Below, in pieces: positions 7,322-60,496 of a stretch of DNA of 64,000 nt. Positions within the stretch are counted from its first letter, which is position 1. Every line of letters starts with the position of its first letter. The notes beneath the pieces were generated by a model, which made no database searches, was not told the origin of the DNA, and worked only from the letters and a program-made list of their open reading frames with translations. This stretch comes from Flavivirga aquimarina (lineage in GTDB: Bacteria > Bacteroidota > Bacteroidia > Flavobacteriales > Flavobacteriaceae): the NCBI RefSeq assembly GCF_030540835.1, contig NZ_JAUOEK010000063.1, forward strand, positions 1-64,000, read 5' to 3'. The position numbers and the translations under genes are program-made.

Positions 7322-10300
7322 ATGAAAAAACCTACTATTTTTAAAACCGAACTTATAGTTTTTCTGCTATTTTTCAGTTTACAATTGTTTGCCCAACAAG
7401 TACCATTTACCCCTAGATTTAATCAGGATATAAAAGGAGATATCTTATTAATTGGTAATAATATTTTAGGACCAAGCAATAACGCCTTCAATGATAACAG
7501 TGCATATAACAATGAGGTTAATATGCAATATATAGATATTGACGGAGACCCCACAACGTTCAGTTCGTCGAGTGCAGATTTGGAAATTCCTAATCCAAAT
7601 TGTTACGAAATTATACATGCGGGTCTGTATTGGGGAGCTGTTACAGCAGATAGTTCGAGACCCATAACCGATATAAAATTTAGTGGTCCGTCAGGAGTAT
7701 ATAATGATATTGTAGGTACTGTTCTTTTTGATAATACAGGAGGAACATCTGTAGATGGTGGCAATAGTTTTCCTTATGCTTGTTATGCCGATGTTACAAA
7801 CATAGTAAGAGGGATGGCAAGTACTATAGGAACGTATACAGTTGCTAATGTATCGTCAGCCCGAGGTGAAACAGATACTTTTAATCCAAGGAATGGTACT
7901 GGATATTCAGCAGGTTGGTCTTTATTTGTAGTTTATGAAGATCCGACATTAACAGGTAAATCGATTACCAGTTTTGATGGATTTAGTGCTATTAGTTCTT
8001 CTAACAATGCTAGCGATGATATCACGGTTTCAGGATTTAGAACAATCCCTACAGGACCAGTTAGAGCAAATTTTGCATTTGCTGCTTTAGAGGGAGATAA
8101 GCCTATTACTGGCGACCGTTTAAGAATTAATGGAACAAGATTATCTGCAACAGATCGTGGCAGAAATAACTTTTTTAATAGTTCGGTAACAGATTTAAGT
8201 GCCACGCCTGTTAATAACAGGAACCCTAATAGTACTAATACTTTAGGATTCGATACAGGGGTCATGGTAGTTCCCAATCCAACAAACACTGTAATAGCTA
8301 ATGATGATACATCTGCGGTAGTTCGTTTAGAAACTGGAGGAGATACGTATTTTCCATATTTTTTCGCATTTGCTGTTGATATTATTGCACCTAATATAGT
8401 CTTAACAAAGACGGTTGAAGACCCTTTAGGAAATGATATTGGGGGTCAATTAGTAGGTCTTGGTGAAGAATTAAATTATGTTATTGGTTTTCAAAATACG
8501 GGGAATGATGATGCTATAGGCCTTACCATTAGGGATGTGCTCCCTGTAAATATCGAATTTGACTACCCTGCAGACATGGGCTTACTACCTTCGGGCGTTA
8601 CGGTACAAAGTTATGACCCAATAGCTAGGGAAATTATTTTTGTTGTTGATGACTCTGTAGTCGAGGAAAATGATCCTGTACTGGAAATACGTTTTAAAGT
8701 GACAGTTGTGAGAGAATGTAGTCTGTTAAATAATGCATGTGACAATATTGTAAGTAATCAGGCATTTTCAGAATATGAAGGTAGGTTAGGTGGTCTAGTG
8801 ATAGAAGACGAAGCCAGCTATAACACTAACACAGGCTGTTTACTTATACCAACAGCGACTAACTTTTTGGCAGATATAGATTGTACGTTTGAAGAAGATG
8901 TGATACTCTGTGGTAATAACGTCGAATTAACGGCTGGTGATGATTATGATTCATATTCATGGTCTACAAGCCCATCAGGAACCCCAGTTATAGGAACAGA
9001 TCAATCTATAAGAGTTTCAACGCCAGGGACTTATTATGTTCGTAATACAGCAACAGCTCCTTGTCAATCTATCGATCAGATATTTAATGTCATTACTTTT
9101 GGTGCTGGAGTTACTAACCCGATAATCCCATTTGCAGATCAGGTCGTTACTTGTCCTAATGATGGGAAAGAATTACCTAACATATTTATGTGTGGGGCTA
9201 CCGATACCAGGTTTATTGATACTAACATTACCGATGCAGACACCATAGTTTGGGAAAGACTGGATGAAACAAGTTGTACAGCCGTTAGTAACATTGATTG
9301 TGCGAACGAAGATCCTTCTTGTACATGGAATCAAGTAGCAACCGGACCTGATTATCTGATAGATACAGCAGGTCAATATAGATTGACGTTAAATTATACA
9401 GGAGGTTGTTTTAATCGGTTTTATTTTAATGTTTATGAAAACGTATTGGTGCCTACAGCGACACCAAGAGATATTATTTGTACAACACCAGGAGAAATAA
9501 CTGTAGGAAATGTTCCGAGTGGCTATGAGTATAGTATTGATAATGTAACTTATCAAGCAAGTAATGTTTTTTCTATTCCTACAGCTGGTATTTATACTGT
9601 TTATGTTAGACAAATAGGTGTAACACCTAACCCTTGTGTCTTTACGGTACCAAATATTCAAATAAGAGAAAGAAATTTTACTGTTTCAACAGCCATTACA
9701 CAACCTTTTTGTAATGGCGATCAGGGAAGTGTTTTAGTCGCTGCTAATGATGTGCTTCCACAATATTACTTTTCAATTTCAGATAGTGGTGGATTAATAA
9801 ATAGCGTAGGCCCGATAATGGCTAATAATTATACGTTTTCAAATTTAAATCCAGGAGTATATACCATTGATGTATCAACAGACGATGGTTGTGTTTATAC
9901 AGGGAATATAACAATAATTAACCCGCCGTTGTTAACAGCGACTTTAGCATTAACAAATCCTTTAACGAGTTGTCCGCCTACGCCTGCTCCAGATCCTGCT
10001 GATGACCCAATACCAGAAACTGGAGAAATTACAGTATATCCGGTAGGAGGTACAGCGCCTTATGTGTATTTTGTAAACAGTACAACTGAATTTCAATCTG
10101 CACCTGAAATTGAGGTATTAACCCCTGGAACATATAATATTAGAGTTGTAGATGTTAATAGCTGTTTTGTAGATTTATCGCTCGTAGTAGATCAAATACC
10201 GCTCCCTGATTTTAATATTACTAAAACCGATATTTTGTGTGCAGGTTCTGGTAATGTAGGAGAAATAAATATTAATGTTACGAATCCTAACGGAAATAGT

Positions 10301-13300
10301 TTACGATATAGTATAGATAATGGAGTAACATTCTTTAACTCACCTACTTTTACAGGGTTAGGTGTAGGTAGTTATGAAGTTGTGGTTGAACATACTGCAG
10401 GACCGGATGTTTGTGCTACGGCACCTCAAACTATAAGTATTGTAGAACTTTCAGCAATTACAGGAACAGCAACATTAACAACACCATATACGTGTACTAC
10501 CAATGGCGAAATAACAGTTTCTGGAGTTTCGGGAGGTACGTCACCTTATACATATAGTATTGATGGAATTAATTTTCAATCCGGACTTACATTTTCAGGA
10601 TTAACAGATGGTACTTATACAGTAACTATAAGAGATGCAAATAATTGTACGTTTGTAGCGCCACCTATAATTATAGATCCATTAGATCCACCAACAGATT
10701 TAACATTTAGTAGTACAGCTTTAACCTGTCCTTTAAATACATCAGATGTTACAATTACCGGAACCACCGGAGGTGTTGGAACGTTAGAATATCAAATAAT
10801 AGCGCCGGCAGGATCAGCTACGCCATATCAAACATCAACTACTTTTTCAGGATTAGCACCAGGAACTTATACATTTCAAGTAAGAGATGCTAACGATTGT
10901 ACATATAGTGAGTCTTATAATATAGCGCCTCTGCCACCATTAGCGGTAGTAGGACAATTAATAAATAATATTACTTGTGTAGGTGCTTCAGATGGAGCAG
11001 TTCGATTTACGGTTTCGGGAACAACAGGCTTTACTTATACGATTAATGCCGGAGCTTCAACACCGGGAACATCTCCTATCGACCTAACAGGTTTAGCAGC
11101 AGGAACGTATACTATTCTTGTAACAGATACAGCTACTAATTGTCAGGAAACAGCTTCTGTAACGGTAAATACACCGGCAATAGCGTTAAGTGTTACAGCT
11201 ACAGAGTCTCCTATTACTTGTGATGTAGATGGAAGTGTTGTTATTAATGCCGTAGGAGGTTGGGGAGGTAACACCTATACACTTACACAACCAGATGCAA
11301 CTGTTTTAGGACCTCAGGGAAGCAATACTTTTGCCGGTTTAACACAGGCAGGAACTTATACAGTTACGGTTACAGATGCGAATGGATGTACAGATACGGA
11401 TACATTTACTTTAAGTACCCCAACACCACCAACGGCTTCTATAGATGTAACATCAGATTTATGTTATGATGTGACAAATGCAGCAACGCTTGTGGTAACA
11501 GCATCTGGCGGACAAACACCTTATGAATATAATATTAATGGCGGACCGTTTGGAACGAGTGATACGTTTGCTAATTTAACACCGGGAACTTATACTATTA
11601 TAGTAAGAGATGCATATGGATGTACCGTTACTTTACCGGCACAAACTATTGCACCACAATTAACAGTAAGTACCGTTTTAACAAAAGATATAGATTGTAC
11701 AATTACACCAGATGCTTTAATTACAGGTACTATTACTGGAGGTACAGCACCATATGATTACGAAGTATCCTTAAATAATGGTGCGTATGTATCAGGAGGT
11801 ACAGGAACCCCGTTTAATCATTTAACGGCAACACCGGGAGATTACCGATTTAGAATAACCGATGCGCAAGGCTGTCAAGCAGAATCTAATGTGGTTACTG
11901 TTAACCCATCAATAAACCCAACAGCTACTGTTACTTCGGTAGATCCTACTTGTAATGGTAGTGCAGATGGTTCAGTACAGATAATACCAGCAGGAGGTAC
12001 AGGGTCTTATACTTACAGCTTTAACGGAAGTGCTACTTTTATAGGAACATCATTATACACCGGGTTAAGTGCAGGTACATATACATACCAAGTAAGAGAT
12101 AGTAATGAATGTCTCTTTAATGGTACGGTAACATTAACAGAACCTACAGCTTTAGCTGCAACACATTCAGTAACACCATTTAGTTGTAGTGTTACAAATA
12201 CAAGCCAATCGGCAACAGTAACGGTAACAGCTACAGTAGGAACTGGTACTGCAGGATATCAATATAGTTTTAATGGATCTGGTTATAGTGCTACAAATAC
12301 ATTAACAGTAAATGATAATGGTTCAGATCAAACGATTAATTATTCAGTACGAGATGCACAAGGTTGTACTTTTAACAGTTCGGTTACGATAACAGCATTA
12401 AACCCACCTACATCTGGTACTATTACTAGTACCCCTGTTACATGTATAGCTACAACAAGTACAGTTACGGTAACTCAGGCAGGAGGAACTGGAGTAGGTA
12501 CATTAACTTATGAAATTATAGCTCCAGCAGCTTCTGCAACTTCAAACGCTACAGGTGTTTTTGCAGGGTTGGCACCAGATACTTATATTTTTAGAGTAAC
12601 AGATGCAGATGGTTGTTATTATGAAGAAACTTATACCGTAGATCCTGTAATAAATATTGCAGTTACAGGGCTATTGGTTAGTGATGTAAGCTGTAATGGA
12701 GGTAATGATGGTGCAGTAGATTTTACAGTGTCTGATTTTGCAGGGACGTACAGTTATACAATTAACGCAGGAACTGCAGTAACCGGTCAATCTGCTACAA
12801 CAATTAATCAAACCGGATTAATTGCTGGTAGTTATACAATAATTGTAACAGATGAAACAACCGGATGTACAGACACATTTGCTGTAACAGTTAATGAACC
12901 AATAAATCCATTAACATTTACAGAAACCTCAACAAATATATTTTGTACTAATGATGAATCACAAATTACTGTTACAGCAGCAGGAGGGACACCAAATTAT
13001 ACCTATGCCGCTGTTATAAATGGTAATCCAGCACCCGGAGTTGGTGCTTATGATCCTAGTAATATTGTAACAGTTGATACAAATTCAGGTGCAGACCTTG
13101 TTTGGGATGTATATGTAAGAGATGCGAATGATTGTATTGAGATGAATACCGTTACTATTACTAACGATGCTTTACCTACAATAAACCCTGTTGCACAACA
13201 ATGTTATACAGGTAGTCCTTTAAATATTACGTTAACAGGAACAACATTTAATGGTTCGGCAACCTATAGTATAGGAAGTAGTTTTCAAGCAAGTCCAAAC

Positions 13301-16300
13301 TTTACAATAAGTACACCAGGTACTTATAATTTAACTATTCAAGATGATAATGGTTGTACTGCAACAACAACTTATACTGTTGAGCCACAATTGTTGGCAG
13401 ATGCGCTTTTAACCAAAAATTTAACGTGTTCTTTACCAGTAGAAGCAACTATTGATGTAACGATATCTGGTGGAACAACTGCTTATACAACTTATCAGGT
13501 TTCTACAAATGGAGGAGCGACTTATTCAGCAGTTTTACCGGCACCAGTAGGCGCTTCTTTTACATATTCGACTGCTGTAGCAGGAACCTACCAGTTTAGA
13601 ATTACAGATTCACAAGGTTGTACAGTAGAAACGAATGCTGTAACAGTAAGTACACCGGTAAATCCGGATATAACTGGTATAGCTCAAACACAAGCTATTT
13701 TATGTAATGCAGAATCAACTGCAACTATAGATATTACTATAGATACGACACAAGGGTTAGCTCCTTTTACTATAAATGTTAATAATGATACTACTACAAC
13801 AAACTATGGTACGCAAACCAGTGGTTTACCAGCAGGAACCTATACTATAACTGTAACAGATGCTAATGGGTGTACAGATACCGATACTATTGTGATTAGT
13901 GAACCGGCTGCTATTAATACGACTTTTCATGCTGTACCTATTACTTGTTTTGGTAGTGGCATATCTAGCGGATCTATCGTAGTTGATGGTGTAACTGGAG
14001 GAACTGCACCTTATAATTATTATGTTACAGGAACGAATGGCTATTCTAACTCTGAACTTAATGCTACAGGTTCTATGTCTGTTAGTTTTGATGTCGTTGA
14101 TTTTGGATTGTATCAAATTCTTATAGAGGATGACAACGGTTGTACTCAGTTAATTCAAGATGTATTAGTTGCATCTCCGCCAACCGATTTAGATATTAGT
14201 GTAAGCTCTCCACCAACACTTTGTTCTGCTGGAGGAACAGCTATAGTAACTATAGGGGGAACATTAACAGGAAATGGACCATACCATTTTGCTATTTATA
14301 CAGGCCCGGGAATGACTTATACAGCTCCAACTGCTGCGCCATGGATAGATGAAGATGCACTCGGAAGTGAGACAGGAACGTTTAACAATTTATTACCGGG
14401 AGTAAGTTATACGTTTATTATTTATGATGAACTTACACAATGTTATTATTTTGAAACATCAACTGTTCCTGTTCCAACAAACTCTACGTTAACAACGAGT
14501 GCGATAGTTGAAAATAATATTACTTGTACAGGAAGTGCTGATGGAAATGTAAGCTTTGATATAACAAGTAGTTATCTGGCTACTACAAATGTTACCTATA
14601 CAATATATGACTCACAAACATTAGTCGCTACGGCTATTTCCGGAACAGGAACAGTTCCTGCTAGCGGAACATTATCGGTGTCTAATTTGGGACCATTACC
14701 TGTTGGGAATTATTTTGTTTTAGTAGAAGAAGATCCGGGAGCTACTAATGCGGGATGTAGTGTTACAACAACAACATTTAGTATTACAGAATCGGTTGCT
14801 TTATTAACTATTAATGCTTCTGTTTCAGCAAATGCGAATTGTAATGATCTGGGTACTATTACCGCAATTGCACAGAATGGAACAGCACCTTATGAATATC
14901 AGGCCGTAGTGACAGGAGCACCTGTAGTGCCAGGTAACTGGGGGAGTGCAAATACGTTTAATTTAGCTGGTAGCATTACTTACGATATATATGTAAGAGA
15001 TGCCTATGGTTGTGAACAGCTTCGTACTATAGCTTTACCAACCGATCCTATTCCAACAATAGATCCAGTAACACAGCAATGTTATGTAGGAAGCCCATTA
15101 AGTATCACCTTATCAGGAACAACATATAATGGAGCAGCGACATATAGTATAGGAGGTGCTTACCAAACAAGTCCAACATTTACAATAAATGCGCCAGGAA
15201 CCTATACAGTTAGTATACAAGATGATAACGGTTGTATAGCTACAACGACTTACGATGTAGAACCTCAATTATTATTAAATGCTAATTTAACACAAGACTT
15301 AACATGTACGGTAGATGCTAGTATTACGATAACCCCTTCGGGAGGAACAGGAACATACGGAGCTTTAGAAGTTAGATTTAACAGTGGAGCGTTTGGTCCT
15401 GCAGCATCTCCTTATATAACCAGTACAGATGGAGACTATGAATTTAGAATTACAGATTCACAAGGATGTCAAGTGATATCTAATACCATTACAGTAACAC
15501 CAAGAACAACACCAACACTTACAGAAGTGCATACGGATGTAAGTTGTAATGGAGGAGCAGATGGTAGTATCGTAATAACCGCAGCTAACGGAATATCACC
15601 ATACCAATATAGTATTGATAACGGAGGAACGTTCCAGGCATCTAATGTATTTACGGGACTAAATGCAGCCGGAAGCCCTTATAATGTGGTCGTGAGAGAT
15701 GCTAAAAATTGTGACTCAGCAATAACAATTGTAAATATTACAGAGCCTAACAATATTACAGGAACCTTAGATTTAACTCAAGGATTAACATGTGGTGTAT
15801 CTAACGCAACACAAGATGCAATTTTAACAGTTACAGGAGCAACTGGGGGAACAGGGGCGTATACCTATAGTTTTGATGGTGGTTTAAATTTCACGTCAAA
15901 TAATACGTATACAACTAATACTCCAGGACTAGTATCTGTTATAGTTAGAGACGCAAATGGATGTTTAAGTGGTGCAATAACACAAACAGTTCCAGTATTA
16001 GACCCACCAACAGATTTAGATTTCTTATCTACACCAATAACATGTTCAGCATTAACAACTAATGTTACTTTAACAACAACAGATGGAGTAGGTACATTAT
16101 CCTATGCGATTTTATCGCCAGCAAGTGCTACAGGAAATATTACCGGAGCAGCTAGTGGAATATTTACAGGTTTAACCCCAGATATTTATTTATTTGAAGT
16201 AACTGATGCTAACGGTTGTACATACCAAGAGTCGTACACGATAGACCCAGTAACCAATATAACAGTAACAGGAGCATTGGGTAATGATGTTAGTTGTAAT

Positions 16301-19300
16301 AGTGGCTCAAATGGAGCAGTAAATTTCACAGTTGGAAATTTTGCAGGAACATATAGCTATACTATTAATGCAGGTGTGCCAGTTGTAGCCCAATCGGCAA
16401 CAACCATTAATTTAACAGGATTATCGACAGGAAATCAAATTATAGTTGTAACAGATGAAATAACAGATTGTACAGACACATTTACTGTATTTGTTGATGA
16501 ACCAACCCAAGTAACGCTTACAGAGACAATAAATATAAACGCGAATTGTAACCTTAATGCCCAAGTAACGGTAGAAGCAAATGGAGGGACAACAGGTTAC
16601 ACTTATGCTTTTGTTCAGGATGGGGCTACCCCAGTAGCAGGAGATTATGGAAATAGCCCTAGTGCTGTTTTAGATCCAACTGTAAATACAGATTGGGATG
16701 TTTATGTACTAGATGCTAATGGGTGTCCAGCACAAATAGATGTTACTATTGCCACAGATGCATTGCCAACAGTAACAGTTCCGGCATTGGCTTCAAATCA
16801 ATGTAACTTAAGTGGAGACCCATATACATTTACAATAGCAAGTAGTTCTGGAGTAGGGCCTTTAGAGTATTCTATAGGAACCGGTTTCCAATCTAGTGGA
16901 ACGTTTACGGTTTCTGCACCAGGAACATATTTTGTAACAGTAAGAGATGATAATGGTTGTACAGCTGTTAGTCCGACTTCTGTAACTGTTTATGAGCCTT
17001 TAGGCATAACACCAACTATAACAGCGTTACCAACATGTTCTAATGATGATGGCGTTATTGTAATAAATGCTACAGGAGGATCAGGGCCAGGGTCTTATAC
17101 CTATGCTATAAGTCCGAATCCAGCATCAATAAGTTTAGCCGGAAATGTATTTTCTGGTGTACCATCTGGAACTTATACTGTTACAATAACAGATGCAACG
17201 ACAACATGTACAAATAATGTTTCAGTAACCTTATTGGCTGCTACACCAGTAACATTTACAACGTCTGTGGTAGATGTAAGTTGTAATGGTGGCAGCGATG
17301 GTGTAATAACTGTAAACTTACCTATAAGCAATGATAATCCAGTTTACACTTATGAGCTTATAGCACCTTCACCTATGGTGAGAGCTGCACAGACCTCAAA
17401 TGTTTTTACTGGGTTAATAGAAGGAGATTATACAGTATTAGTAACTTCTGGTAGAGGGTGTTCTGACACTCAAGTAGTTAATGTTTCAGAACCTTCACTT
17501 TTAACAGTTACGGGAACAGCAACAGCATATACCTGTGCACCTGATAATTCTGTAAATACATCAACACTTACTATTACCGAAGGAGCAGGTACAGGAACTG
17601 CACTATATGCTTATAGTATTGATGGGACTAATTATTTCCCTACGAATACATTTGATATAATTGATACAGGAAGCCCACAGGTCATTAATATATTTGTAAG
17701 AGATGATAATGGATGTATAGCAACTAATACGGTTAATATTGCACCATTACCAACCTTAACGGCAGCTACAGTAGCTGTAGTAACACCTATAGATTGTGAT
17801 GGAACTGGTTCGGTTGATATAACAGTTACTGGAGGTTCTGGTAACTTTGAATTCGTTATGTTACCAAGTGGTACGCCTCAGGCTTCAAATATATTTGCTA
17901 TAACAGCTCCTGGAGATTACTATTTCCAAGTAAACGATTTAACTACGGGTTGTACTATAGCAACACCACGATTTACTGTAGCACCTTTCGATACGATTGA
18001 TGCAGTAATAACTCCAACAGTAGCTGTTACTTGTTTTACAGATACAAATGGTGAATTTGAAATTAATGTAACTGGCTATACAGGGCCTTATACTTACGAT
18101 ATATTAGATAGTTTAGGAGCTTCAGTAAGAGGTATTACGGCTGCTAATACATCAACAAACCCTGAAGTAGTAACGGGAATGACGGGAGGTAATTACACGG
18201 TAGTAGTAACAGAAACAGCAAGTCCGTTCTGTACAACAACATCGAATGTGATTACTATAGATTCTCCTGCCTCACCATTAACAGTGACAGCTACAGAAAC
18301 AGCTAGTGTAACCTGTGATAATAATGTAGGAACCATTACAGCAACTGCCAGGGGAGGAAGAGGATCTTATGAATATGAATTAACAGGAGCCGCTACGGTT
18401 GCGTATTCACCAAATGGAATGTTTAGTAATTTATCGGCAGGTTCTTATATAGTAAATGTTAGAGATGCAGGAGGTTGTATTGCTTCCGATCCGATTACTC
18501 TAAATATCCCAATACCAATTACAGCTACAGTAACACCAAGTACAAACTTATTATCTTGTTTTGGTGATACTAATGCTAGTATAACAGTAAGTCTTGCAAA
18601 TGGTGGACAAGGAAGTAACTATTCTTATACACTTAATATGGTGTTACCAACAGTAACATCGTCTGGTCCTCAAGCATCGCCTGTATTTAACGATTTAGGA
18701 GCAGGGACTTATAATGTTACTGTAACCGATGGCTACAATTGTGTGTTTAATTCACCTAACATTGTTATAAGTGAACCTACTCAAGTACAAACAACGTTGG
18801 CATTGAGTACGTCGTTAACCTGTACAGCTAGTGCAGAATTAACATTAAGTGCCACAGGTGGAACAGGACAATATACATACAGTGACACCCCTAATTTTGT
18901 AACAACATTAGGAGCGTTTGCAACATCAACAACATTCCCTGTAACAACAGGAACACATGCTTATTATGTTAGAGATGCCAATGGTTGTGATGCGAATATT
19001 TCCAATGAAGTTACTATAGACCCACTTCCTGCTTTAGTAGTTAATTTAGATTCTACGAATCCAACTATAAATTGTGCAGGTGATGATACAGGAGTTATAA
19101 CCGCAACAGCTCAAGGAGGTTTAGGTAGTTATATTTATACCTTACAAGATACGTCGGGAACTAATATAACACCAGTAACACAAAATAGTCCAGGTGTTTT
19201 CACCAATCTTGTTGCCGGAAGTTATCAGGTAAGAGTAGATAGTGGCGATTGTTTAGTTACTTCAGCAATAATTAATATTACTGAGCCTACTGCACCGTTA

Positions 19301-20518
19301 ACAGCAAGTTTTGTGACAAACGATGTAACCTGTCCGGGTATTAATGACGGTACTTTACAGATAAATGCATCTGGAGGTACAGGAATTATTAGATATGCTA
19401 TTTCGCCTAGATTAGATCAGTTTTTCGAAACATCTTTGTTTGAAGGTCTGGCTCCGGGTAGCTATCAAGCTATAGCGCAGGACGAACTAGGTTGTTTCAT
19501 CTTTGATGATACCATAGTTATTGGTTCTCCAGTTCCTGTTACGTTAAGTATTGTTCCCGGTTCAATGATACCTGAAATTTGTGAAGGTGATTTAGACGGA
19601 GAATTTAGTGTAGATATTACTGGAGGTACGTTACCATATAGTGTTACTTTAGATGATATTAATGGTGTTTATACAACAGGAACTGCACTTCAAACGCAAT
19701 TCGACTTCACTGGATTAGGTGGAGGAGATCATATCGTTTATGTTCGAGATGCGGTAGGTTGTGAATCTGCATGGAATATTACATTCCCTGTATCGGTAAG
19801 AATTAACCCAGAAGCTATTGTTGAATACGGTTGTGCGGGTAATATATCTACCAATACTGTTACCGTAACAATAGATGACAGTATAACAAACCCTGCAGAT
19901 ATAGATTACTCTTTAGATGGAAGACCATATCAAGCCAGTAATGTATTTGTTAATGTACCGGCAGGATTAGATCATTATATAGATGTAAGACACACGAACG
20001 GTTGTACACAAAGAACCGAAACTTTCGATATTTCTCAATTTGACCCATTATCTCTTGTTTTAGAAGATGGGGGATTAAATGAAATCGTTGCTGTAACTAA
20101 TGGCGGTGCTGCTCCATACGAATACACACTTAATGGTGAGGCTTATGGAGATACAGATACGTTTATTATTTACGAATCTGGAGATTATACAGTTACTGTA
20201 ACAGATAGCAATGGGTGTGTGATTTCGGCTACTAGATATTTCGAATATATTGATGTATGTATTTCTAATTACTTTACTCCAAATGGAGATGGTGACCAAG
20301 ACGAATGGGGACCAGGTTGTACATCGCAATATAAAGATCTTACTTTCGATGTTTTCGATAGATATGGCCGAGCAATAGCAACATTACGTGTAGGAGAAAA
20401 ATGGGATGGTAAATATAATGATAAGGAACTTCCAACAGGAGATTATTGGTATATTTTAAAACTTAATGATCCAAAAGATGATCGCGAATTTGTTGGACAC
20501 TTTACACTTTATAGATAA
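7322..20518 (+). CDS. sprB: SprB, giant gliding adhesin secreted by the type IX system
   Basis: A 4398-residue protein with a signal peptide ending QLFAQQ at about residue 26. Residues about 30-350 form an N-terminal domain without a clear family. Residues about 353-490 form a DUF11-like module, followed by an Ig-like module at about 525-580. Residues about 700-4230 hold roughly forty SprB-type repeats of 70-85 residues, each with a CxG..DG start, a GGT.PY.YS core and a GTYT..V.D..GC end. The last 88 residues are a type B C-terminal domain (YFTPNGDGDQDEW, then DRYGR and LPTGDYWYILKL). SprB is the mobile cell-surface adhesin of gliding flavobacteria. The F. johnsoniae protein is longer, about 6500 residues. 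SprF, which supports its secretion, follows 15 bp downstream. The modules form a higher-order repeat described separately. Confidence 0.95.
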   Translation: MKKPTIFKTELIVFLLFFSLQLFAQQVPFTPRFNQDIKGDILLIGNNILGPSNNAFNDNSAYNNEVNMQYIDIDGDPTTFSSSSADLEIPNPNCYEIIHAGLYWGAVTADSSRPITDIKFSGPSGVYNDIVGTVLFDNTGGTSVDGGNSFPYACYADVTNIVRGMASTIGTYTVANVSSARGETDTFNPRNGTGYSAGWSLFVVYEDPTLTGKSITSFDGFSAISSSNNASDDITVSGFRTIPTGPVRANFAFAALEGDKPITGDRLRINGTRLSATDRGRNNFFNSSVTDLSATPVNNRNPNSTNTLGFDTGVMVVPNPTNTVIANDDTSAVVRLETGGDTYFPYFFAFAVDIIAPNIVLTKTVEDPLGNDIGGQLVGLGEELNYVIGFQNTGNDDAIGLTIRDVLPVNIEFDYPADMGLLPSGVTVQSYDPIAREIIFVVDDSVVEENDPVLEIRFKVTVVRECSLLNNACDNIVSNQAFSEYEGRLGGLVIEDEASYNTNTGCLLIPTATNFLADIDCTFEEDVILCGNNVELTAGDDYDSYSWSTSPSGTPVIGTDQSIRVSTPGTYYVRNTATAPCQSIDQIFNVITFGAGVTNPIIPFADQVVTCPNDGKELPNIFMCGATDTRFIDTNITDADTIVWERLDETSCTAVSNIDCANEDPSCTWNQVATGPDYLIDTAGQYRLTLNYTGGCFNRFYFNVYENVLVPTATPRDIICTTPGEITVGNVPSGYEYSIDNVTYQASNVFSIPTAGIYTVYVRQIGVTPNPCVFTVPNIQIRERNFTVSTAITQPFCNGDQGSVLVAANDVLPQYYFSISDSGGLINSVGPIMANNYTFSNLNPGVYTIDVSTDDGCVYTGNITIINPPLLTATLALTNPLTSCPPTPAPDPADDPIPETGEITVYPVGGTAPYVYFVNSTTEFQSAPEIEVLTPGTYNIRVVDVNSCFVDLSLVVDQIPLPDFNITKTDILCAGSGNVGEININVTNPNGNSLRYSIDNGVTFFNSPTFTGLGVGSYEVVVEHTAGPDVCATAPQTISIVELSAITGTATLTTPYTCTTNGEITVSGVSGGTSPYTYSIDGINFQSGLTFSGLTDGTYTVTIRDANNCTFVAPPIIIDPLDPPTDLTFSSTALTCPLNTSDVTITGTTGGVGTLEYQIIAPAGSATPYQTSTTFSGLAPGTYTFQVRDANDCTYSESYNIAPLPPLAVVGQLINNITCVGASDGAVRFTVSGTTGFTYTINAGASTPGTSPIDLTGLAAGTYTILVTDTATNCQETASVTVNTPAIALSVTATESPITCDVDGSVVINAVGGWGGNTYTLTQPDATVLGPQGSNTFAGLTQAGTYTVTVTDANGCTDTDTFTLSTPTPPTASIDVTSDLCYDVTNAATLVVTASGGQTPYEYNINGGPFGTSDTFANLTPGTYTIIVRDAYGCTVTLPAQTIAPQLTVSTVLTKDIDCTITPDALITGTITGGTAPYDYEVSLNNGAYVSGGTGTPFNHLTATPGDYRFRITDAQGCQAESNVVTVNPSINPTATVTSVDPTCNGSADGSVQIIPAGGTGSYTYSFNGSATFIGTSLYTGLSAGTYTYQVRDSNECLFNGTVTLTEPTALAATHSVTPFSCSVTNTSQSATVTVTATVGTGTAGYQYSFNGSGYSATNTLTVNDNGSDQTINYSVRDAQGCTFNSSVTITALNPPTSGTITSTPVTCIATTSTVTVTQAGGTGVGTLTYEIIAPAASATSNATGVFAGLAPDTYIFRVTDADGCYYEETYTVDPVINIAVTGLLVSDVSCNGGNDGAVDFTVSDFAGTYSYTINAGTAVTGQSATTINQTGLIAGSYTIIVTDETTGCTDTFAVTVNEPINPLTFTETSTNIFCTNDESQITVTAAGGTPNYTYAAVINGNPAPGVGAYDPSNIVTVDTNSGADLVWDVYVRDANDCIEMNTVTITNDALPTINPVAQQCYTGSPLNITLTGTTFNGSATYSIGSSFQASPNFTISTPGTYNLTIQDDNGCTATTTYTVEPQLLADALLTKNLTCSLPVEATIDVTISGGTTAYTTYQVSTNGGATYSAVLPAPVGASFTYSTAVAGTYQFRITDSQGCTVETNAVTVSTPVNPDITGIAQTQAILCNAESTATIDITIDTTQGLAPFTINVNNDTTTTNYGTQTSGLPAGTYTITVTDANGCTDTDTIVISEPAAINTTFHAVPITCFGSGISSGSIVVDGVTGGTAPYNYYVTGTNGYSNSELNATGSMSVSFDVVDFGLYQILIEDDNGCTQLIQDVLVASPPTDLDISVSSPPTLCSAGGTAIVTIGGTLTGNGPYHFAIYTGPGMTYTAPTAAPWIDEDALGSETGTFNNLLPGVSYTFIIYDELTQCYYFETSTVPVPTNSTLTTSAIVENNITCTGSADGNVSFDITSSYLATTNVTYTIYDSQTLVATAISGTGTVPASGTLSVSNLGPLPVGNYFVLVEEDPGATNAGCSVTTTTFSITESVALLTINASVSANANCNDLGTITAIAQNGTAPYEYQAVVTGAPVVPGNWGSANTFNLAGSITYDIYVRDAYGCEQLRTIALPTDPIPTIDPVTQQCYVGSPLSITLSGTTYNGAATYSIGGAYQTSPTFTINAPGTYTVSIQDDNGCIATTTYDVEPQLLLNANLTQDLTCTVDASITITPSGGTGTYGALEVRFNSGAFGPAASPYITSTDGDYEFRITDSQGCQVISNTITVTPRTTPTLTEVHTDVSCNGGADGSIVITAANGISPYQYSIDNGGTFQASNVFTGLNAAGSPYNVVVRDAKNCDSAITIVNITEPNNITGTLDLTQGLTCGVSNATQDAILTVTGATGGTGAYTYSFDGGLNFTSNNTYTTNTPGLVSVIVRDANGCLSGAITQTVPVLDPPTDLDFLSTPITCSALTTNVTLTTTDGVGTLSYAILSPASATGNITGAASGIFTGLTPDIYLFEVTDANGCTYQESYTIDPVTNITVTGALGNDVSCNSGSNGAVNFTVGNFAGTYSYTINAGVPVVAQSATTINLTGLSTGNQIIVVTDEITDCTDTFTVFVDEPTQVTLTETININANCNLNAQVTVEANGGTTGYTYAFVQDGATPVAGDYGNSPSAVLDPTVNTDWDVYVLDANGCPAQIDVTIATDALPTVTVPALASNQCNLSGDPYTFTIASSSGVGPLEYSIGTGFQSSGTFTVSAPGTYFVTVRDDNGCTAVSPTSVTVYEPLGITPTITALPTCSNDDGVIVINATGGSGPGSYTYAISPNPASISLAGNVFSGVPSGTYTVTITDATTTCTNNVSVTLLAATPVTFTTSVVDVSCNGGSDGVITVNLPISNDNPVYTYELIAPSPMVRAAQTSNVFTGLIEGDYTVLVTSGRGCSDTQVVNVSEPSLLTVTGTATAYTCAPDNSVNTSTLTITEGAGTGTALYAYSIDGTNYFPTNTFDIIDTGSPQVINIFVRDDNGCIATNTVNIAPLPTLTAATVAVVTPIDCDGTGSVDITVTGGSGNFEFVMLPSGTPQASNIFAITAPGDYYFQVNDLTTGCTIATPRFTVAPFDTIDAVITPTVAVTCFTDTNGEFEINVTGYTGPYTYDILDSLGASVRGITAANTSTNPEVVTGMTGGNYTVVVTETASPFCTTTSNVITIDSPASPLTVTATETASVTCDNNVGTITATARGGRGSYEYELTGAATVAYSPNGMFSNLSAGSYIVNVRDAGGCIASDPITLNIPIPITATVTPSTNLLSCFGDTNASITVSLANGGQGSNYSYTLNMVLPTVTSSGPQASPVFNDLGAGTYNVTVTDGYNCVFNSPNIVISEPTQVQTTLALSTSLTCTASAELTLSATGGTGQYTYSDTPNFVTTLGAFATSTTFPVTTGTHAYYVRDANGCDANISNEVTIDPLPALVVNLDSTNPTINCAGDDTGVITATAQGGLGSYIYTLQDTSGTNITPVTQNSPGVFTNLVAGSYQVRVDSGDCLVTSAIINITEPTAPLTASFVTNDVTCPGINDGTLQINASGGTGIIRYAISPRLDQFFETSLFEGLAPGSYQAIAQDELGCFIFDDTIVIGSPVPVTLSIVPGSMIPEICEGDLDGEFSVDITGGTLPYSVTLDDINGVYTTGTALQTQFDFTGLGGGDHIVYVRDAVGCESAWNITFPVSVRINPEAIVEYGCAGNISTNTVTVTIDDSITNPADIDYSLDGRPYQASNVFVNVPAGLDHYIDVRHTNGCTQRTETFDISQFDPLSLVLEDGGLNEIVAVTNGGAAPYEYTLNGEAYGDTDTFIIYESGDYTVTVTDSNGCVISATRYFEYIDVCISNYFTPNGDGDQDEWGPGCTSQYKDLTFDVFDRYGRAIATLRVGEKWDGKYNDKELPTGDYWYILKLNDPKDDREFVGHFTLYR
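10685..19486 (+). repeat. Seven-module higher-order repeat within sprB
   Basis: A recognisable lead module with a PPT linker recurs at 10685, 12401, 14174 and 16001, and in weaker form near 17744. The spacings are 1716, 1773, 1827 and 1743 bp. Between lead modules the other six follow in similar order. Examples are the ITC/VSC..DGAV module second, the QCYTGSPL / QCYVGSPL module fourth (blocks 2 and 3, near 13200 and 15078), and a module with a TSQ/ATQ or NTS segment seventh. The right limit is approximate. Confidence 0.75.
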
Positions 20519-25014: not shown

Positions 25015-27501
25015 ATGAAAAAACTTGTCCTACTTTTAGCCTTATTTTCTTTAAACATGGGGAATTCTCAAATTTTTGAGCCCGTAAAATGGATCACTTC
25101 GGTAGAGAAAATATCTAATAACAAATATAAATTAATCTCCAAAGCAAGTATAGAGTCTGGTTGGCATTTGTATTCTCAAGATGTTCCTGAAGACGGTCCT
25201 GTTCCAACAACATTTACATACGATGATAAAAATGGAACTTTTAAAATAATAGGTAAAACCTTAGAAGAAGAAGGGCATACTATAGATGATCCTATTTTCG
25301 GGATGAAAATAAAATTTTTTGAAGACCAAGCAGTTTTCGAGCAAATAGTAGAGGTATTAGCCGATGAAAGAACAGTTAATGCTACGGTTGAATTTATGGT
25401 ATGTGATGATACCAAGTGTTTGCCTCCTACAGAGGTAGATTTGGTGTTTAATTTACCATCTAAATCATTAAGTGTACCTGTTAAAACGGAAAAAAATGAG
25501 CCCGCTAAAACTAAAAATGCATCTACTAGTACAAATGCACAAGGGATATTAGATCCAGTAAAATGGGATTTTCAGACTAAAAAGATTGGAGATAAAGAAT
25601 ACGAGTTAATATTTGTTGCTAATATTGATGAAAATTGGGCATTATATTCTCAGTTTATTGAAGGAGAAGGACCTATACCGACTACATTTACTTTTCAAGA
25701 GAATAATGATTATATTTTAGAGGGAGATGTCATAGAAAGTGATAAAAATAAGGTCACTAAAAAAGAACCATTATTTGATAATATTAAAGTAGGAAAGTTT
25801 TATAATCAAGCAGTTTTTACCCAAAAAGTAAAAATCGATAATATTAATACTGTTATAAAAGGTAACCTTCAATATATGGCTTGTGATGATAGCAAATGTA
25901 TATTCCCGCCAGAAGAGCCTTTTCTATTTAATTTTACTAAATTAGAAATAGATGTTTCAACGAATAAAGGTTTTGAAAACAATAATTCTTCGGTGAACAA
26001 TTTATTATATGGAATGTCTACTGAAGATTTAAAGAGGTCTGAAATAGAATGTGATAATGAAGCTGTTAATAACGCTTCTGAAGTAAAAAATAGTAGTAAT
26101 TCGCTGTGGCGTATTTTTGGATTAGGTTTTTTAGGAGGTTTATTGGCATTATTAACCCCATGTGTATTTCCAATGATTCCACTCACAGTTAGTTTTTTTA
26201 CTAAAAAAGGAGGAGAAAGCAAAGGAGCTGGTATTTCGAAAGCATTACTTTATGGGTTTTTTATATTTGCAGTATATATTTTACTAAGTGTTCCATTTCA
26301 TTTATTAGATTCAGTAAACCCTGACATTTTAAATGAAATTTCTACCAACATTTGGCTTAATGTTATCTTTTTTGTGATTTTCTTATTTTTTGCTTTTTCG
26401 TTTTTTGGATATTATGAATTAACATTACCATCTAATTGGACAAATAAAACGACCCAAGGCGAAAACGTAGGAGGTTTAGTGGGAATCTTTTTTATGGCAC
26501 TAACGTTAGCTTTGGTATCATTTTCATGTACAGGTCCTATATTAGGTTCTTTACTAGCTGGTTCGTTAACTGCTGATGGAGGTGCATGGCAACTTACTGC
26601 CGGTATGGCCGGCTTTGGAGTATCTTTAGGTTTACCTTTTGCATTATTTGCAATGTTTCCAAATATGATGAATGCTTTACCAAAATCGGGAGGCTGGTTA
26701 AATACAACAAAAGTTATTTTAGGCTTTTTAGAATTAGCGTTAGCTTTTAAGTTTTTATCGAATGCAGATCTAGTAGCTCATTGGGGAATTTTAAAAATAG
26801 AACCATTTTTAATTATATGGATAATTGTTTTTGGAGGTTTATCGCTTTACTTATTTGGTAAAATAAAATTCCCTCATGATTCTCCAATTAAAAAGTTGTC
26901 TTTTTCAAGAATATCAGGAGGAATATTAGTTGCAGCCTTTACAATTTATTTAGTGTCTGGATTCAGAGTAAACAAAGATACTAAGACTTTTACTCCATTA
27001 ACCCTATTAAGTGGTTTAGCGCCTCCTGTAGGTTATAGTTTTTTATATCCAAATGATTGCCCTAACAACTTAAACTGTTTTAAGGATTTAAAAGAAGGAT
27101 TAGCTTATGCGAAGAAAGTTAATAAACCTATAATGATTGATTTTACAGGTTTGGCTTGTGTTAATTGTAGAAAAATGGAAGAACATGTATGGCCATTAAA
27201 AAAGATCGATAATTATCTTCGAAATGATTACGTCCTTATCTCGCTTTATGTTGATGATAAAAAAGAATTACCAGAAGCAGAGCAAGTTGAAGTTACAAGA
27301 ATAAATGGAGGGACTAGAACTCTTAAAAATTATGGACATAAATGGGCGCATTTTCAAACTCAATTTTTTCAAACAAATTCTCAGCCATATTATGTTCTAC
27401 TTAGCCCAAATGGGAAGCAAATTTTAAATCAGCCTGTTGGTTATACTCCAGATGAAAATGAGTATGCAAAATTTCTTGAATGTGGTTTAAAGAAAGAATA
27501 A
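25015..27501 (+). CDS. dsbD: Thiol:disulfide interchange protein, DsbD type
   Basis: An 828-residue inner-membrane protein that carries reducing power from the cytoplasm to periplasmic proteins. A signal peptide (ending MGNSQ) is followed by two DsbD-alpha-like domains in tandem. Both have the GPxPTTF segment and a CDDTKC or CDDSKC pair (about residues 25-150 and 180-310). A CcdA-type membrane part with about eight helices follows (residues about 360-660), with conserved Cys383 in LTPCVFPM and Cys505 in SFSCTGPILG. A C-terminal thioredoxin-like domain carries C715-V-N-C718. Two N-terminal domains instead of one is the longer form common in Bacteroidota. Its stop codon overlaps the next start (TAATG), so the desulfurase-like gene is probably co-translated. 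Confidence 0.93.
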   Translation: MKKLVLLLALFSLNMGNSQIFEPVKWITSVEKISNNKYKLISKASIESGWHLYSQDVPEDGPVPTTFTYDDKNGTFKIIGKTLEEEGHTIDDPIFGMKIKFFEDQAVFEQIVEVLADERTVNATVEFMVCDDTKCLPPTEVDLVFNLPSKSLSVPVKTEKNEPAKTKNASTSTNAQGILDPVKWDFQTKKIGDKEYELIFVANIDENWALYSQFIEGEGPIPTTFTFQENNDYILEGDVIESDKNKVTKKEPLFDNIKVGKFYNQAVFTQKVKIDNINTVIKGNLQYMACDDSKCIFPPEEPFLFNFTKLEIDVSTNKGFENNNSSVNNLLYGMSTEDLKRSEIECDNEAVNNASEVKNSSNSLWRIFGLGFLGGLLALLTPCVFPMIPLTVSFFTKKGGESKGAGISKALLYGFFIFAVYILLSVPFHLLDSVNPDILNEISTNIWLNVIFFVIFLFFAFSFFGYYELTLPSNWTNKTTQGENVGGLVGIFFMALTLALVSFSCTGPILGSLLAGSLTADGGAWQLTAGMAGFGVSLGLPFALFAMFPNMMNALPKSGGWLNTTKVILGFLELALAFKFLSNADLVAHWGILKIEPFLIIWIIVFGGLSLYLFGKIKFPHDSPIKKLSFSRISGGILVAAFTIYLVSGFRVNKDTKTFTPLTLLSGLAPPVGYSFLYPNDCPNNLNCFKDLKEGLAYAKKVNKPIMIDFTGLACVNCRKMEEHVWPLKKIDNYLRNDYVLISLYVDDKKELPEAEQVEVTRINGGTRTLKNYGHKWAHFQTQFFQTNSQPYYVLLSPNGKQILNQPVGYTPDENEYAKFLECGLKKE

Positions 27502-29012
27502 TGATTAAGACTATAAAAAATAAGTTAACACCTAAAACTAACGATTCCACTCTAGAAGATTATTTCAAGTCTTTTAGAAATAATATAGTTGGTAACAACG
27601 AATCTTTTGAGTCTCCTTACGGTAAGCAGAAAATTATTTATGCCGATTGGACAGCTAGTGGGAGGTTATATAGACCGATAGAAGAAAAGTTACTCAATGA
27701 GATTGGTCCTTTTGTCGCCAATACACATACAGAAACCTCTATAACAGGATCTGCGATGACTCTAGCATATCATAATGCCAGAAATATTATAAAAAAGCAT
27801 GTAAATGCATCAGAAGAGGACGTACTCATTACGGTTGGAACTGGAATGACAGGTGCGATCAATAAGTTTCAACGTATTTTAGGTTTAAAATTAAACGAAA
27901 ATTTAAAAGATCACACTCAAGTTCCCGAAGCCTTAAAACCAATCATTTTTGTATCACACATGGAGCATCACTCTAATCAAACATCTTGGTTAGAAACCAT
28001 TGCTAGGGTTGAAGTTATACCTTCAAACGAAGTAGGTTTGCCATGCGTAAAAAATTTAAAAAAGCTCATTGCAAAGTATCAAGATTGCCCGATAAAAATA
28101 GCCGCTATTACTGGATGTTCTAACGTAACAGGTATTAGAACCAATTATCATGAAGTCGCCAAAATTATGCATCAGAACAATGGATTATGTTTTGTGGACT
28201 TTGCATGTTCTGCACCTTATATAGATATAGATATGCACCCAAAGGACGAAGAAACGTACTTAGATGCTATTACGTTTTCTCCTCACAAATTCTTAGGAGG
28301 ACCGGGAGCTTCTGGTGTGCTGATTTTTAATAAAAAATTATATAAAAATCTGGTTCCAGATAATCCGGGAGGAGGCACCGTTTCTTATACGAACCCTTGG
28401 GGAGATCATGATTATATAGATGATATAGAAACTAGAGAAGATGGCGGAACGCCTGGCTTTTTACAAGCTATAAAAATAGCACTATCCATTGAGCTTAAAG
28501 AGAAAATGGGTGTGATAAATATTTTGGATAGAGAACACGAGTTAAATGCCATTATTTTTGACAAGCTGAGAGCTATAGAAAACCTTACCATACTAGCACC
28601 AGAGCATACAGATAGGTTAGGTGTATTTTCTTTTTATATTGAAGATGTTCATTATAATTTAATTGTTAAGTTGTTAAATGATCGCTTCGGAGTGCAAACC
28701 CGAGGAGGCTGTTCTTGTGCTGGAACTTATGGACATTATTTACTAAATGTTGATGAATCTACCTCTAAATCAATAGAACAAAAAATATTAGAAGGTTGTT
28801 TAATTGAGCGACCAGGATGGGTAAGAATGTCTATACATCCTACCATGACCAATGAGGACATTCATTTTATCTGTGATGCTATAAAAAAAGTTGCTGAGAA
28901 TTATGAAAGTTGGGGAAAAGATTATGAATACAATGCCATTAAAAATGAATTTATTCATAAAGGAAACTACAATATTGAAAAAGAAATAACAGAAGACTGG
29001 TTTAAGTTATAA
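27501..29012 (+). CDS. Class V aminotransferase fold enzyme, cysteine-desulfurase-like
   Basis: A 503-residue PLP enzyme. Lys263 in the SPHKFLGGPG segment should bind PLP, with Asp233 in VDFACSAP contacting the pyridine nitrogen. Cys404 and Cys406 in RGGCSCAG match the position of the catalytic Cys in the SufS/NifS family, which take sulfur from cysteine. At about 500 residues it is longer than SufS (about 400), so the substrate could differ. The chosen start is the ATG at 27501, which overlaps the dsbD stop by one base. An in-frame ATG at 27480 would lie inside dsbD. Overlap with a thiol-disulfide gene suggests a shared sulfur or redox role, but this is inference. Confidence 0.85.
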   Translation: MIKTIKNKLTPKTNDSTLEDYFKSFRNNIVGNNESFESPYGKQKIIYADWTASGRLYRPIEEKLLNEIGPFVANTHTETSITGSAMTLAYHNARNIIKKHVNASEEDVLITVGTGMTGAINKFQRILGLKLNENLKDHTQVPEALKPIIFVSHMEHHSNQTSWLETIARVEVIPSNEVGLPCVKNLKKLIAKYQDCPIKIAAITGCSNVTGIRTNYHEVAKIMHQNNGLCFVDFACSAPYIDIDMHPKDEETYLDAITFSPHKFLGGPGASGVLIFNKKLYKNLVPDNPGGGTVSYTNPWGDHDYIDDIETREDGGTPGFLQAIKIALSIELKEKMGVINILDREHELNAIIFDKLRAIENLTILAPEHTDRLGVFSFYIEDVHYNLIVKLLNDRFGVQTRGGCSCAGTYGHYLLNVDESTSKSIEQKILEGCLIERPGWVRMSIHPTMTNEDIHFICDAIKKVAENYESWGKDYEYNAIKNEFIHKGNYNIEKEITEDWFKL

Positions 29013-29088: not shown

Positions 29089-29119
29089 TTGTCATTCTGC
29101 GCTACGACGCAGAATCCAT
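29089..29119 (+). repeat. Left 31-bp arm, REP-like hairpin
   Basis: It is the perfect reverse complement of 29429-29459. The core 8-bp stem is ATTCTGCG / CGCAGAAT around CTACGA. It occupies the space where the leader and ribosome-binding region of the nuclease gene would be, so the hairpin could affect its translation. Confidence 0.9.
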
Positions 29120-29126
29120 ATAGATA

Positions 29127-29429
29127 ATGAGAGGGAACTATCATCAATACTATGTATATATTCTATCTAATAAGAAAAACGGAACATTATATATTGGAGT
29201 AACTAATGATTTAGAACGAAGGATTTTTGAACATAAACGAAAAATGATTTCAGGTTTTACATCAAAATATGACCTAAATAAATTAATGTATTTTGAACAA
29301 TTTCAATATGTAAATGATGCTATTAAAAGAGAAAAGCAATTAAAGAATTGGAACAGACAATGGAAAATAGATTTAATTGAAAAAACTAATCAAAATTGGA
29401 TAGATTTGTCAATAGATTGGAAATATTAA
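29127..29429 (+). CDS. GIY-YIG nuclease-family protein
   Basis: A 100-residue single-domain protein of the UPF0213/YhbQ-like GIY-YIG group. The motif appears as YVY at residues 9-11 and YIG at 22-24, followed by Arg31/Arg32, His36 and the catalytic Glu69 in the AIKREKQLKNW segment. All expected active-site residues are present, so a metal-dependent endonuclease activity is plausible. No ribosome-binding site is visible. The 7 bases before the ATG follow directly on a hairpin. The gene is bracketed by perfect 31-bp inverted repeats and reads against the following gene. Its position within a compact inverted-repeat unit suggests it acts on, or moves with, those repeats. Confidence 0.9.
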   Translation: MRGNYHQYYVYILSNKKNGTLYIGVTNDLERRIFEHKRKMISGFTSKYDLNKLMYFEQFQYVNDAIKREKQLKNWNRQWKIDLIEKTNQNWIDLSIDWKY

Positions 29430-29459
29430 TGGATTCTGCGTCGTAGCGCAGAATGACAA
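29429..29459 (-). repeat. Right 31-bp arm, REP-like hairpin
   Basis: A perfect inverted copy of 29089-29119, starting on the last base of the nuclease stop codon. As a hairpin just after the stop it may also help end or stabilise the transcript. Confidence 0.9.
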
Positions 29460-29553: not shown

Positions 29554-30591
29554 TTACTGCTCAAGAATTTCCACTTCAAATAATTTATCCCAATGCTTGC
29601 CAGTTACAAAAATGGTATTGGTTTTTGGGTTGTAAGCAATGCCATTAAGCACATCTAATGTTTCATGCTGGGTGACAAGCTTTTTAAGAGGAGAAAAATC
29701 AATAACACCTATAACAGCACCATTTTTAGGGTTAATAATAGCGACACCGTCTTTCGTCCAACGGTTTGCATATATTTTACCATCTACCCATTCCATTTCA
29801 TTGATACCTACAATTTTTCCTTTATTGGTAAATACTTGAATAAACGATTCTTCAACTAAAGTTTCTGAGTTTAAGAGCCATATTTTTTCGGTACCATCAC
29901 TTTTATAAATGTTATTTTCGTTGTTGCATAGTCCCCAGCCTTCTTTACTGTTTCCATACTTGAAACTACTTATTTTATCAAACGAACTCACATCATAAAC
30001 AAAACCGATATCTTCTCTCCATGTTAGTTGATATATCTTATCATTTAAGATAGTTAATCCCTCTCCAAAATATTCGTCTGCCAAGTCAATGTTTTTTATA
30101 ATTTTCCCAGTTTTATAGTCAATTTTTCTAAGTTTAGATTTTTTATATTGACCAGAACTTTCATATAGCGTATCATTGAAAAACTCAATCCCCTGAGTAT
30201 ATGAAGTGATATCATGCGGGTATTCATTTATTATTTTATAACTATAAACTTTTGGAGGTGCATCATTTAATATGGTAACAGTTGTACTAACTGTTTCTTT
30301 TTCATCATTATTAAAGTATACAGTAGCTTTTATAGTTTGTTTTCCTAATTTAAAATTAGTTAGTTGGATAGTATCATCAACCTTAATAGCATCTAAAGTA
30401 TAAGATACAGAATCTATAGTATGTTTTTTTTTGTTTTCTAATGATAGAGATAAGGTCGTGTTTTTAGAAATATTTCCTTTATTGGCGTTTGTTTTGATAG
30501 AAAATATGCTTTTATTTTTACCAGAATTAGGGCCACAAGAAATAATTGAGGCACCTAAAAACATGATTAATAGATATTTGAATATGCGCAT
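29554..30591 (-). CDS. Glutamine cyclotransferase lipoprotein
   Basis: A 345-residue protein. Residues 1-19 are a lipoprotein signal with lipobox IISC (Cys19). Residues about 25-110 form an Ig-like region, and residues about 115-345 are a five-bladed propeller-type glutamine cyclotransferase. Recognisable motifs are YTQGIEF, ESSGQY, EGLT, LTWRE, EGWGLC, INEMEW, ANRW and LNGIAYNP near the end. The family turns N-terminal Gln into pyroglutamate. In T9SS organisms exported proteins often start with Gln after signal-peptide cleavage, as several signal peptides in this window show (AQ at the cleavage site), so they are likely substrates. The lipoprotein probably faces the periplasm. Confidence 0.88.
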   Translation of the reverse strand: MRIFKYLLIMFLGASIISCGPNSGKNKSIFSIKTNANKGNISKNTTLSLSLENKKKHTIDSVSYTLDAIKVDDTIQLTNFKLGKQTIKATVYFNNDEKETVSTTVTILNDAPPKVYSYKIINEYPHDITSYTQGIEFFNDTLYESSGQYKKSKLRKIDYKTGKIIKNIDLADEYFGEGLTILNDKIYQLTWREDIGFVYDVSSFDKISSFKYGNSKEGWGLCNNENNIYKSDGTEKIWLLNSETLVEESFIQVFTNKGKIVGINEMEWVDGKIYANRWTKDGVAIINPKNGAVIGVIDFSPLKKLVTQHETLDVLNGIAYNPKTNTIFVTGKHWDKLFEVEILEQ

Positions 30592-60322: not shown

Positions 60323-60496
60323 CTGAGACCCGTGTTAAAATTTAACTAGCGTAAGCAATGACGTAGTCGAAATGATAGTTTCATTGTCCTCCTGAGCGCA
60401 GTCGAAGGACTTGTTAGTTATTACCTTTAAAGCGTTTCGACTGCGCTCGAGGAGACATTACGTCATTATTCCGCTTGAGAATTTTTTTGGTCTCAG
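60323..60496. repeat. REP-like nested palindrome of 174 bp
   Basis: Three nested perfect inverted repeats share one centre: ctgagacc (60323-60330 with 60489-60496), aatgacgta (60357-60365 with 60459-60467) and gagcgcagtcgaa (60394-60406 with 60436-60448). The core reads GTCCTCCTGAGCGCAG... and resembles the GTCATTCTG-type arms of the 29089-29459 unit. It looks like a REP pair in head-to-head orientation (REPIN-like). It lies between convergent genes, and the remainder of the 60202-60515 gap has no gene. Confidence 0.65.

Follow-up and report, generated by a model that had tools for sequence, protein, structure and literature searches.

A GIY-YIG endonuclease gene enclosed by inverted CGTC-type REP hairpins in Flavivirga aquimarina and its relatives: a candidate nuclease-plus-target cassette

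A small GIY-YIG endonuclease gene of Flavivirga aquimarina lies between two perfectly matched inverted hairpins that fit, as judged from their sequence, the CGTC superfamily of REPs. Most of the related genes compared in the Flavobacteriaceae are enclosed by such hairpins in the same orientation, the class of hairpin is specific to the subclade of the nuclease, and the number of hairpins in a genome rises with the presence of a close homologue of the gene. With moderate confidence, we view the unit as a minimal cassette of a nuclease and its target, in which the enzyme would recognize and cut the CGTC-type REP hairpins that flank its own gene and which would spread only rarely.

RESULTS

Anatomy of the unit

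The unit is located in a stretch of 64,000 nucleotides (positions 1 to 64,000 of contig NZ_JAUOEK010000063.1, RefSeq assembly GCF_030540835.1), referred to here as the window (Table 1). Its arms are 31 nt each, 100% complementary and 309 nt apart, confirming both the perfect inverted repeats around a GIY-YIG gene and the coordinates given in the original prediction, which was made from the letters of the window. The gene also fills the space between the arms as predicted, since only 7 bp separate the left arm from the ATG and the right arm begins within the stop codon, at its final base. Both arms fold as hairpins (z of -3.7 and -4.2). A chance origin of the arms is excluded by the inverted-repeat score, which is 31 at the unit, whereas none of 400 random window positions and 1 of 30 flanks of window ORFs of at least 150 aa reached a score of at least 13 in the same geometry. 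The pattern GTCATTC-N8-20-GAATCCA, which we use to define the arm class, has two matches in the window, both of them the arms, and none in 100 shuffles.

Table 1. Features of the unit, its neighbours and a second palindrome in the window
Feature	Position	Strand	Description
Upstream neighbour	27480..29012	+	Class-V aminotransferase gene, PF00266; defines the current location of the unit
Left arm	29089..29119	+	Hairpin, CGTC-type REP by sequence, tag outward
Left-arm parts			TTGTC; 8-bp stem ATTCTGCG/CGCAGAAT; 6-nt loop CTACGA; tail CCAT
GIY-YIG endonuclease gene	29127..29429	+	100 aa, ATG to TAA, intact
Right arm	29429..29459	-	Exact reverse complement of the left arm, tag outward
Downstream neighbour	29554..30591	-	Glutamine cyclotransferase gene, PF05096
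Gene-less palindrome pair	60394-60405; 60437-60448	+; -	GAGCGCAGTCGA cores within 60323-60496; different hairpin class

The second palindrome of Table 1 had been taken for a relative of the arms without a gene. It is gene-less, but its hairpin class is a different one, that of the arms of another GIY-YIG gene in the same genome (G000:C107:410822; L088); the GAGCGCAGTCGA core also flanks a distant homologue (L119). Elsewhere in the window, positions 5410-6525 and about 10100-20220 hold protein-coding repeats, consisting of tandem units of 48 nt and numerous imperfect copies of a 39-nt motif, which resemble a large repetitive surface-type protein.

The arms as CGTC-type REPs

According to the survey by Di Nocera, De Gregorio, and Rocco (2013; PMC3733652), CGTC REPs have a CGTC or TGTC tag, stems of 8 or 9 bp starting with A and T, a tail that is mostly CCA, and a loop of 4 or 5 nt in most cases and of other lengths in some species; they occur in Bacteroidetes and Proteobacteria and include dRS3 of Neisseria. 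The window arms share with these elements the tag (an unpaired TGTC preceding the stem), the 8-bp stem starting with A and T, and the CCA tail, so the earlier claim that the arms are themselves REP-type hairpins holds. They differ in the loop, which is 6 nt long compared with mostly 4 or 5 nt in CGTC REPs, and loops of 4, 5, and 6 nt all occur among relatives of the window unit.

CGTC REPs are also repeated in their genomes, and here a search of the F. aquimarina genome, as first suggested, gave a divided answer: the wider arm class has 10 matches (reversed pattern, 0), but the exact arm, allowing up to 3 mismatches, is confined to this one site. Across 12 genomes of the genus, the class is present in 6 to 28 copies per genome, compared with 0 or 1 match to the reversed pattern. 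The stem varies in sequence while its pairing is maintained. Among 47 distinct 26-mers, 92% of the inner four pairs are formed, compared with a mean of 78% and a maximum of 83.5% in shuffles; among 24 distinct 27-mers the value is 93%, compared with 69% and 77%. These shuffle tests ignore the kinship of the sequences. Pairing in the 28-mer class, to which the window arms belong, was not above that of shuffles, with 6 distinct sequences, which are too few for covariation.

The nuclease

The window protein matches the complete Pfam GIY-YIG domain (PF01541; E value, 1.7e-17; 63.9 bits against a cutoff of 22.6), and residues including Y11, Y22, I23, G24, R32, E69, and N88 are invariant in 32 relatives, some of these presumably being catalytic. 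Its sequence thus places the protein in the GIY-YIG superfamily, with conserved residues of putatively catalytic type. The predicted structure is a confident GIY-YIG model (pLDDT, 91.2). The UPF0213 proteins 1zg2 and 1ywl are its closest solved structures by both sequence and fold, at 26% and 24% identity, respectively, followed by Slx1 and the UvrC N-terminal domain; 1zg2 alone reached an E value of <0.001 in the fold search. GIY-YIG homing endonucleases share the catalytic domain and were weakly matched in PHROGs and PADLOC; unlike them, the window protein is a free-standing domain enclosed by hairpins, with no intron and no separate DNA-binding domain. A role as a defense system was considered and set aside, PADLOC having returned only a weak homing-endonuclease model (E value, 3.8e-4).

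Association of the gene with arms in Flavobacteriaceae

The association between gene and arms is real and general. We compared 137 homologous loci (80 + 30 + 27), a set that includes the window and in which several genomes are present twice. Arms of the class flank the gene on both sides in the orientation seen in the window at 83 of these loci, compared with 2 of 2,740 random positions in the same loci, and they lie close to the start and stop codons. At the remaining loci, 9 have only the left arm, 17 only the right, and 28 neither; 12 of the 137 also carry opposite-facing arms on both sides. The protein is at most 62% identical to that of the window at 24 of the 28 loci without class arms, and 14 of the 28 have an inverted repeat of at least 13, mostly of other hairpin classes (for example, scores of 29 in L126 and 24 in L197). 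The same pattern recurs within the F. aquimarina genome, where 11 of 14 GIY-YIG matches are small stand-alone genes and 8 of these 11, including the window gene, are flanked by inverted repeats of at least 13 that fall into several classes; none of the three longer GIY-YIG genes is. One of the compared loci (L072) lies on a contig titled Candidatus Nitrotoga, which is probably a stray in a metagenome bin since the protein and its flanking genes group with Flavobacterium loci.

The class of arm follows the tree of the nuclease, with more distant paralogues often carrying other hairpins. On a tree of 110 proteins, which omits 17 loci with an open frame of <80 aa and 10 with a repeated protein, loop class changes 5 times for the right arm and 4 times for the left, compared with minima of 19 and 15 in 100 shuffles. 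A 25-row DNA tree, covering part of the loci and leaving out rows whose computed frame contains a stop, has few well-supported branches. The perfect identity of the two arms, which stands for the window, is not the rule, being found in 20 of 74 distinct two-armed units; in the subfamily of the window, identical pairs occur with three different sequences. Concerted evolution of one arm with the other was therefore not borne out as a general rule, the arms of a unit being no more alike (0.855) than those of nearest relatives (0.836) to a significant degree (P = 0.21; n = 74 distinct units).

Occurrence in other taxa

A protein search of a plasmid collection gave 33 records, 15 of which were examined. 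An inverted repeat of at least 21 surrounds the gene in 10 of the 15 (eight Alphaproteobacteria, Aeromonas caviae, and Neisseria gonorrhoeae), extending to 33 of 33 nt in Rhizobium sp. CIAT894. Together with the 83 flavobacterial loci, these records uphold the original view of the GIY-YIG gene as a regular neighbor of the arms. A strict test for tagged hairpins on both sides was passed by 7 of the 15 records, compared with 1 of 2,000 random window positions. The best pair around the N. gonorrhoeae gene is in the orientation opposite to that of the window arms. The other five records (Planktothrix, Spirosoma, Photobacterium, Sinorhizobium sp. C101, and R. tumorigenes) show no inverted repeat of at least 13 at the gene; on Planktothrix agardhii plasmid p1 (L240), the homologue has an MmeI-type restriction gene on one side and drmA, a DISARM gene, on the other. 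Within the Bacteroidota, 144 of 345 genomes searched have a homologue at an E value of ≤1e-20, and 28 loci from this search were examined, with the window and G170 left out. Hairpins that satisfy the strict test lie on both sides of the gene in 6 of the 28, and the inverted repeat reaches at least 13 in 16.

Arm copy number across genomes

The number of arm-class repeats was compared with nuclease content in 249 Flavobacteriaceae genomes of 202 genera, using statistics that ignore the kinship of genomes. At least three repeats were found in 20 of 22 genomes with a close homologue (E value, ≤1e-40) and in 34 of 227 others (P = 3e-13). The proportion declines with the distance of the homologue, to 7 of 18 at E values from 1e-30 to 1e-40, 20 of 89 from 1e-15 to 1e-30, and 7 of 120 where there is none. 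When two arms per GIY-YIG match were subtracted, at least three repeats were still present in 14 of the 22 and in 20 of the 227. The predicted rise of arm copy number with the nuclease is therefore supported and is tied to close relatives of the window protein. The pairing of nuclease and repeat is supported by this correlation but is not strict: five genomes without a homologue at an E value of ≤1e-15 hold 7, 10, 10, 73, and 10 arm-class repeats, and two genomes with close homologues hold just 0 and 2. The genome with 73 repeats is G250, a member of the Flavobacteriaceae. Two outcomes had been named in advance as evidence against the association, arms restricted to a single site in all relatives and a gene mostly without arms; neither describes what was found.

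Turnover and relocation

Most units look old and syntenic, and movement of the unit is accordingly rare. The genes on either side of one locus (L003) have homologues that also flank 14 other loci (some being the same genome twice), and 20 loci form one group linked by common flanking genes, with a DUF6638 gene upstream; the unit is found on the opposite side of that gene at L006 and L013. The group includes G007, from the genus of the window, with a locus (L098) at which protein and flanks are identical to those of L004, Flavivirga sp. 57AJ16.

The window unit lies outside this usual context. It falls in none of the synteny groups of the compared loci, and its two neighbors were not found at other loci in the first locus comparison. 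Inspection by eye of the DUF6638 site in 12 genomes of the genus revealed an intact unit in G007, a short remnant with both arms in G011, a one-arm remnant in G009, and no unit in the other nine, F. aquimarina included. In F. aquimarina (contig C34; L202), inspection by eye of the position 3' of the DUF6638 gene, which is the unit site in relatives, revealed a different repeated sequence, which contains a small CCGAACTTGATTCGG hairpin and is missing from some members of the genus. Conversely, at the site now occupied by the window unit, after the aminotransferase gene, arm-class sequence was recognized by eye in at least 6 of the 12 genomes: as the window unit itself, as a broken unit in G002, as arms lacking a gene in G006 and G008, and as fragments in G001 and G004. 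Comparison of the two sites indicates that the unit has moved or was lost at one site and gained at the other, in a place where relatives also carry arm-class repeats. The window unit is away from the site of its nearest relatives. A deletion beside the unit was also considered since the two neighbors are 5.8 to 9.6 kb apart in 8 genomes of the genus; this reading was dropped because the glutamine cyclotransferase gene lies directly 3' of the aminotransferase gene in G028, which belongs to another genus.

Tandem units occur in G007 (three copies, 98 to 100% alike over the best 300 nt and about 505 bp apart), G002 (two copies, 97%), and G270 (two copies, 97%). In addition, arm pairs form arrays with no GIY-YIG gene inside, with periods of 301 to 333 bp in L256 (G007:C45:116900-118900) and 239 bp in L259 (G008:C12:208400-209039).

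DISCUSSION

In the model that we propose, the GIY-YIG endonuclease would recognize the hairpin form of the REPs (tag GTC, 8-bp stem, and tail CCA), the two inverted arms would be the ends of the unit, and solo and paired REPs elsewhere would be further targets or remnants. That the hairpin is the recognition site of the nuclease is the best-supported part of the model. Cutting of the arms would most likely take place on single-stranded DNA, with nicks near the tag or tail. Copying from a unit during the repair of nicked or cut REPs could then give rise to rare relocation and local tandem copies, and the same cut-and-repair route could lead to decay into gene-less arm pairs and to the spread of REPs.

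More tentatively, GIY-YIG genes between CGTC REPs might constitute their own class of transposase-free minimal mobile elements of about 370 bp, which would nick single-stranded hairpin ends and be copied by repair, with enzyme and hairpin coevolving by subclade; such elements would be the missing engine of CGTC REPs in several phyla. If this is true, a class of mobile elements without a transposase would stand behind the CGTC superfamily. The 2013 survey (PMC3733652) states that these REPs "apparently lack a dedicated transposase," mentions GIY-YIG 0 times, and names no enzyme partner, and the pairing of gene and arm offers a candidate enzyme for the position left open there. No published link of GIY-YIG proteins to REP-type or dRS3 palindromes was found among the titles and abstract openings of the part of the literature covered. 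Furthermore, with arm class tied to enzyme subclade, every gene brings its own predicted recognition hairpin, and specificity may be readable from the genome.

The closest known parallel in organization is the REP/RAYT system with its REPINs (see PMC2817692, PMC3116915, and PMC8266576), which likewise have small inverted palindromes around a small nuclease-type gene and further copies in the genome; for comparison, the arm class has the 6 to 28 copies per genome given above for the genus. Two defining features set the window unit apart from RAYT systems, the protein being GIY-YIG rather than HUH/Y1 and the tag TGTC rather than GTAG; it is not one of them but may work like one. The original suggestion that a GIY-YIG nuclease takes the place of the Y1 transposase is partly supported, by the association and the copy-number correlation; the cutting and transposition that it implies are predicted. 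A second parallel is Ssn of Neisseria, which is said to be a small single-domain GIY-YIG protein acting as a site-specific single-strand nuclease with a repeated genomic target; in size, single-domain structure, and repeated target, the two would be alike. If Ssn covers the Neisseria branch, our results would extend the rule to the Flavobacteriaceae and add the evidence from copy number, turnover, and relocation.

Alternatively, the nuclease may cut its REPs for the benefit of the host, limiting or editing incoming DNA or processing REP hairpins at replication, in which case the unit would not be selfish and the flanking arms would be the nearest targets of the enzyme. Such a role is reportedly that of the Ssn family of Neisseria. 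The conserved contexts of most units and a gene that is intact in most loci while the arms vary are consistent with this possibility, as is the N. gonorrhoeae homologue, which is 51% identical over 96 residues and sits among dRS3-like hairpins. An element that comes and goes would instead leave behind units in tandem, decayed units, arrays with no gene, and a patchy distribution within a genus, all of which are seen here, and we regard a host-serving role as possible but doubtful.

A reading in which the nuclease does not target the arms and they serve only as RNA hairpins, whether for mRNA stability, for end formation, or for autoregulation of the gene, appears improbable. The arms do lie close to the start and stop codons, and a single strand of the complete unit gives a strong fold (z of -9.5), though any perfect inverted repeat would do so. 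This reading is at odds with the copies of the class elsewhere in the genome and leaves the conserved unpaired GTC and CCA ends unexplained. In addition, a terminator search and Rfam both returned nothing at the unit, and assignment of the arms to a known RNA family or terminator was therefore rejected.

Finally, the possibility that a Y1 (RAYT or IS200-type) or other transposase moves the REPs, with the GIY-YIG gene as a passenger between them, might draw on the 10 Y1 matches in the F. aquimarina genome and on the tie between RAYTs and REPs of the other superfamily described in PMC3733652, but we consider it very unlikely, since the arm class tracks the GIY-YIG tree, that survey found no case of CGTC repeats bordering a tyrosine transposase gene, and at least three repeats are no more frequent in genomes with Y1 transposases (22 of 103) than in those without (32 of 146; P = 1), on which ground RAYT or Y1 was rejected as the driver of the arm repeats in the 249 genomes. 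Copy number follows the nuclease even in Y1-free genomes, where at least three repeats are present in 27 of 61 with the nuclease and in 5 of 85 without it.
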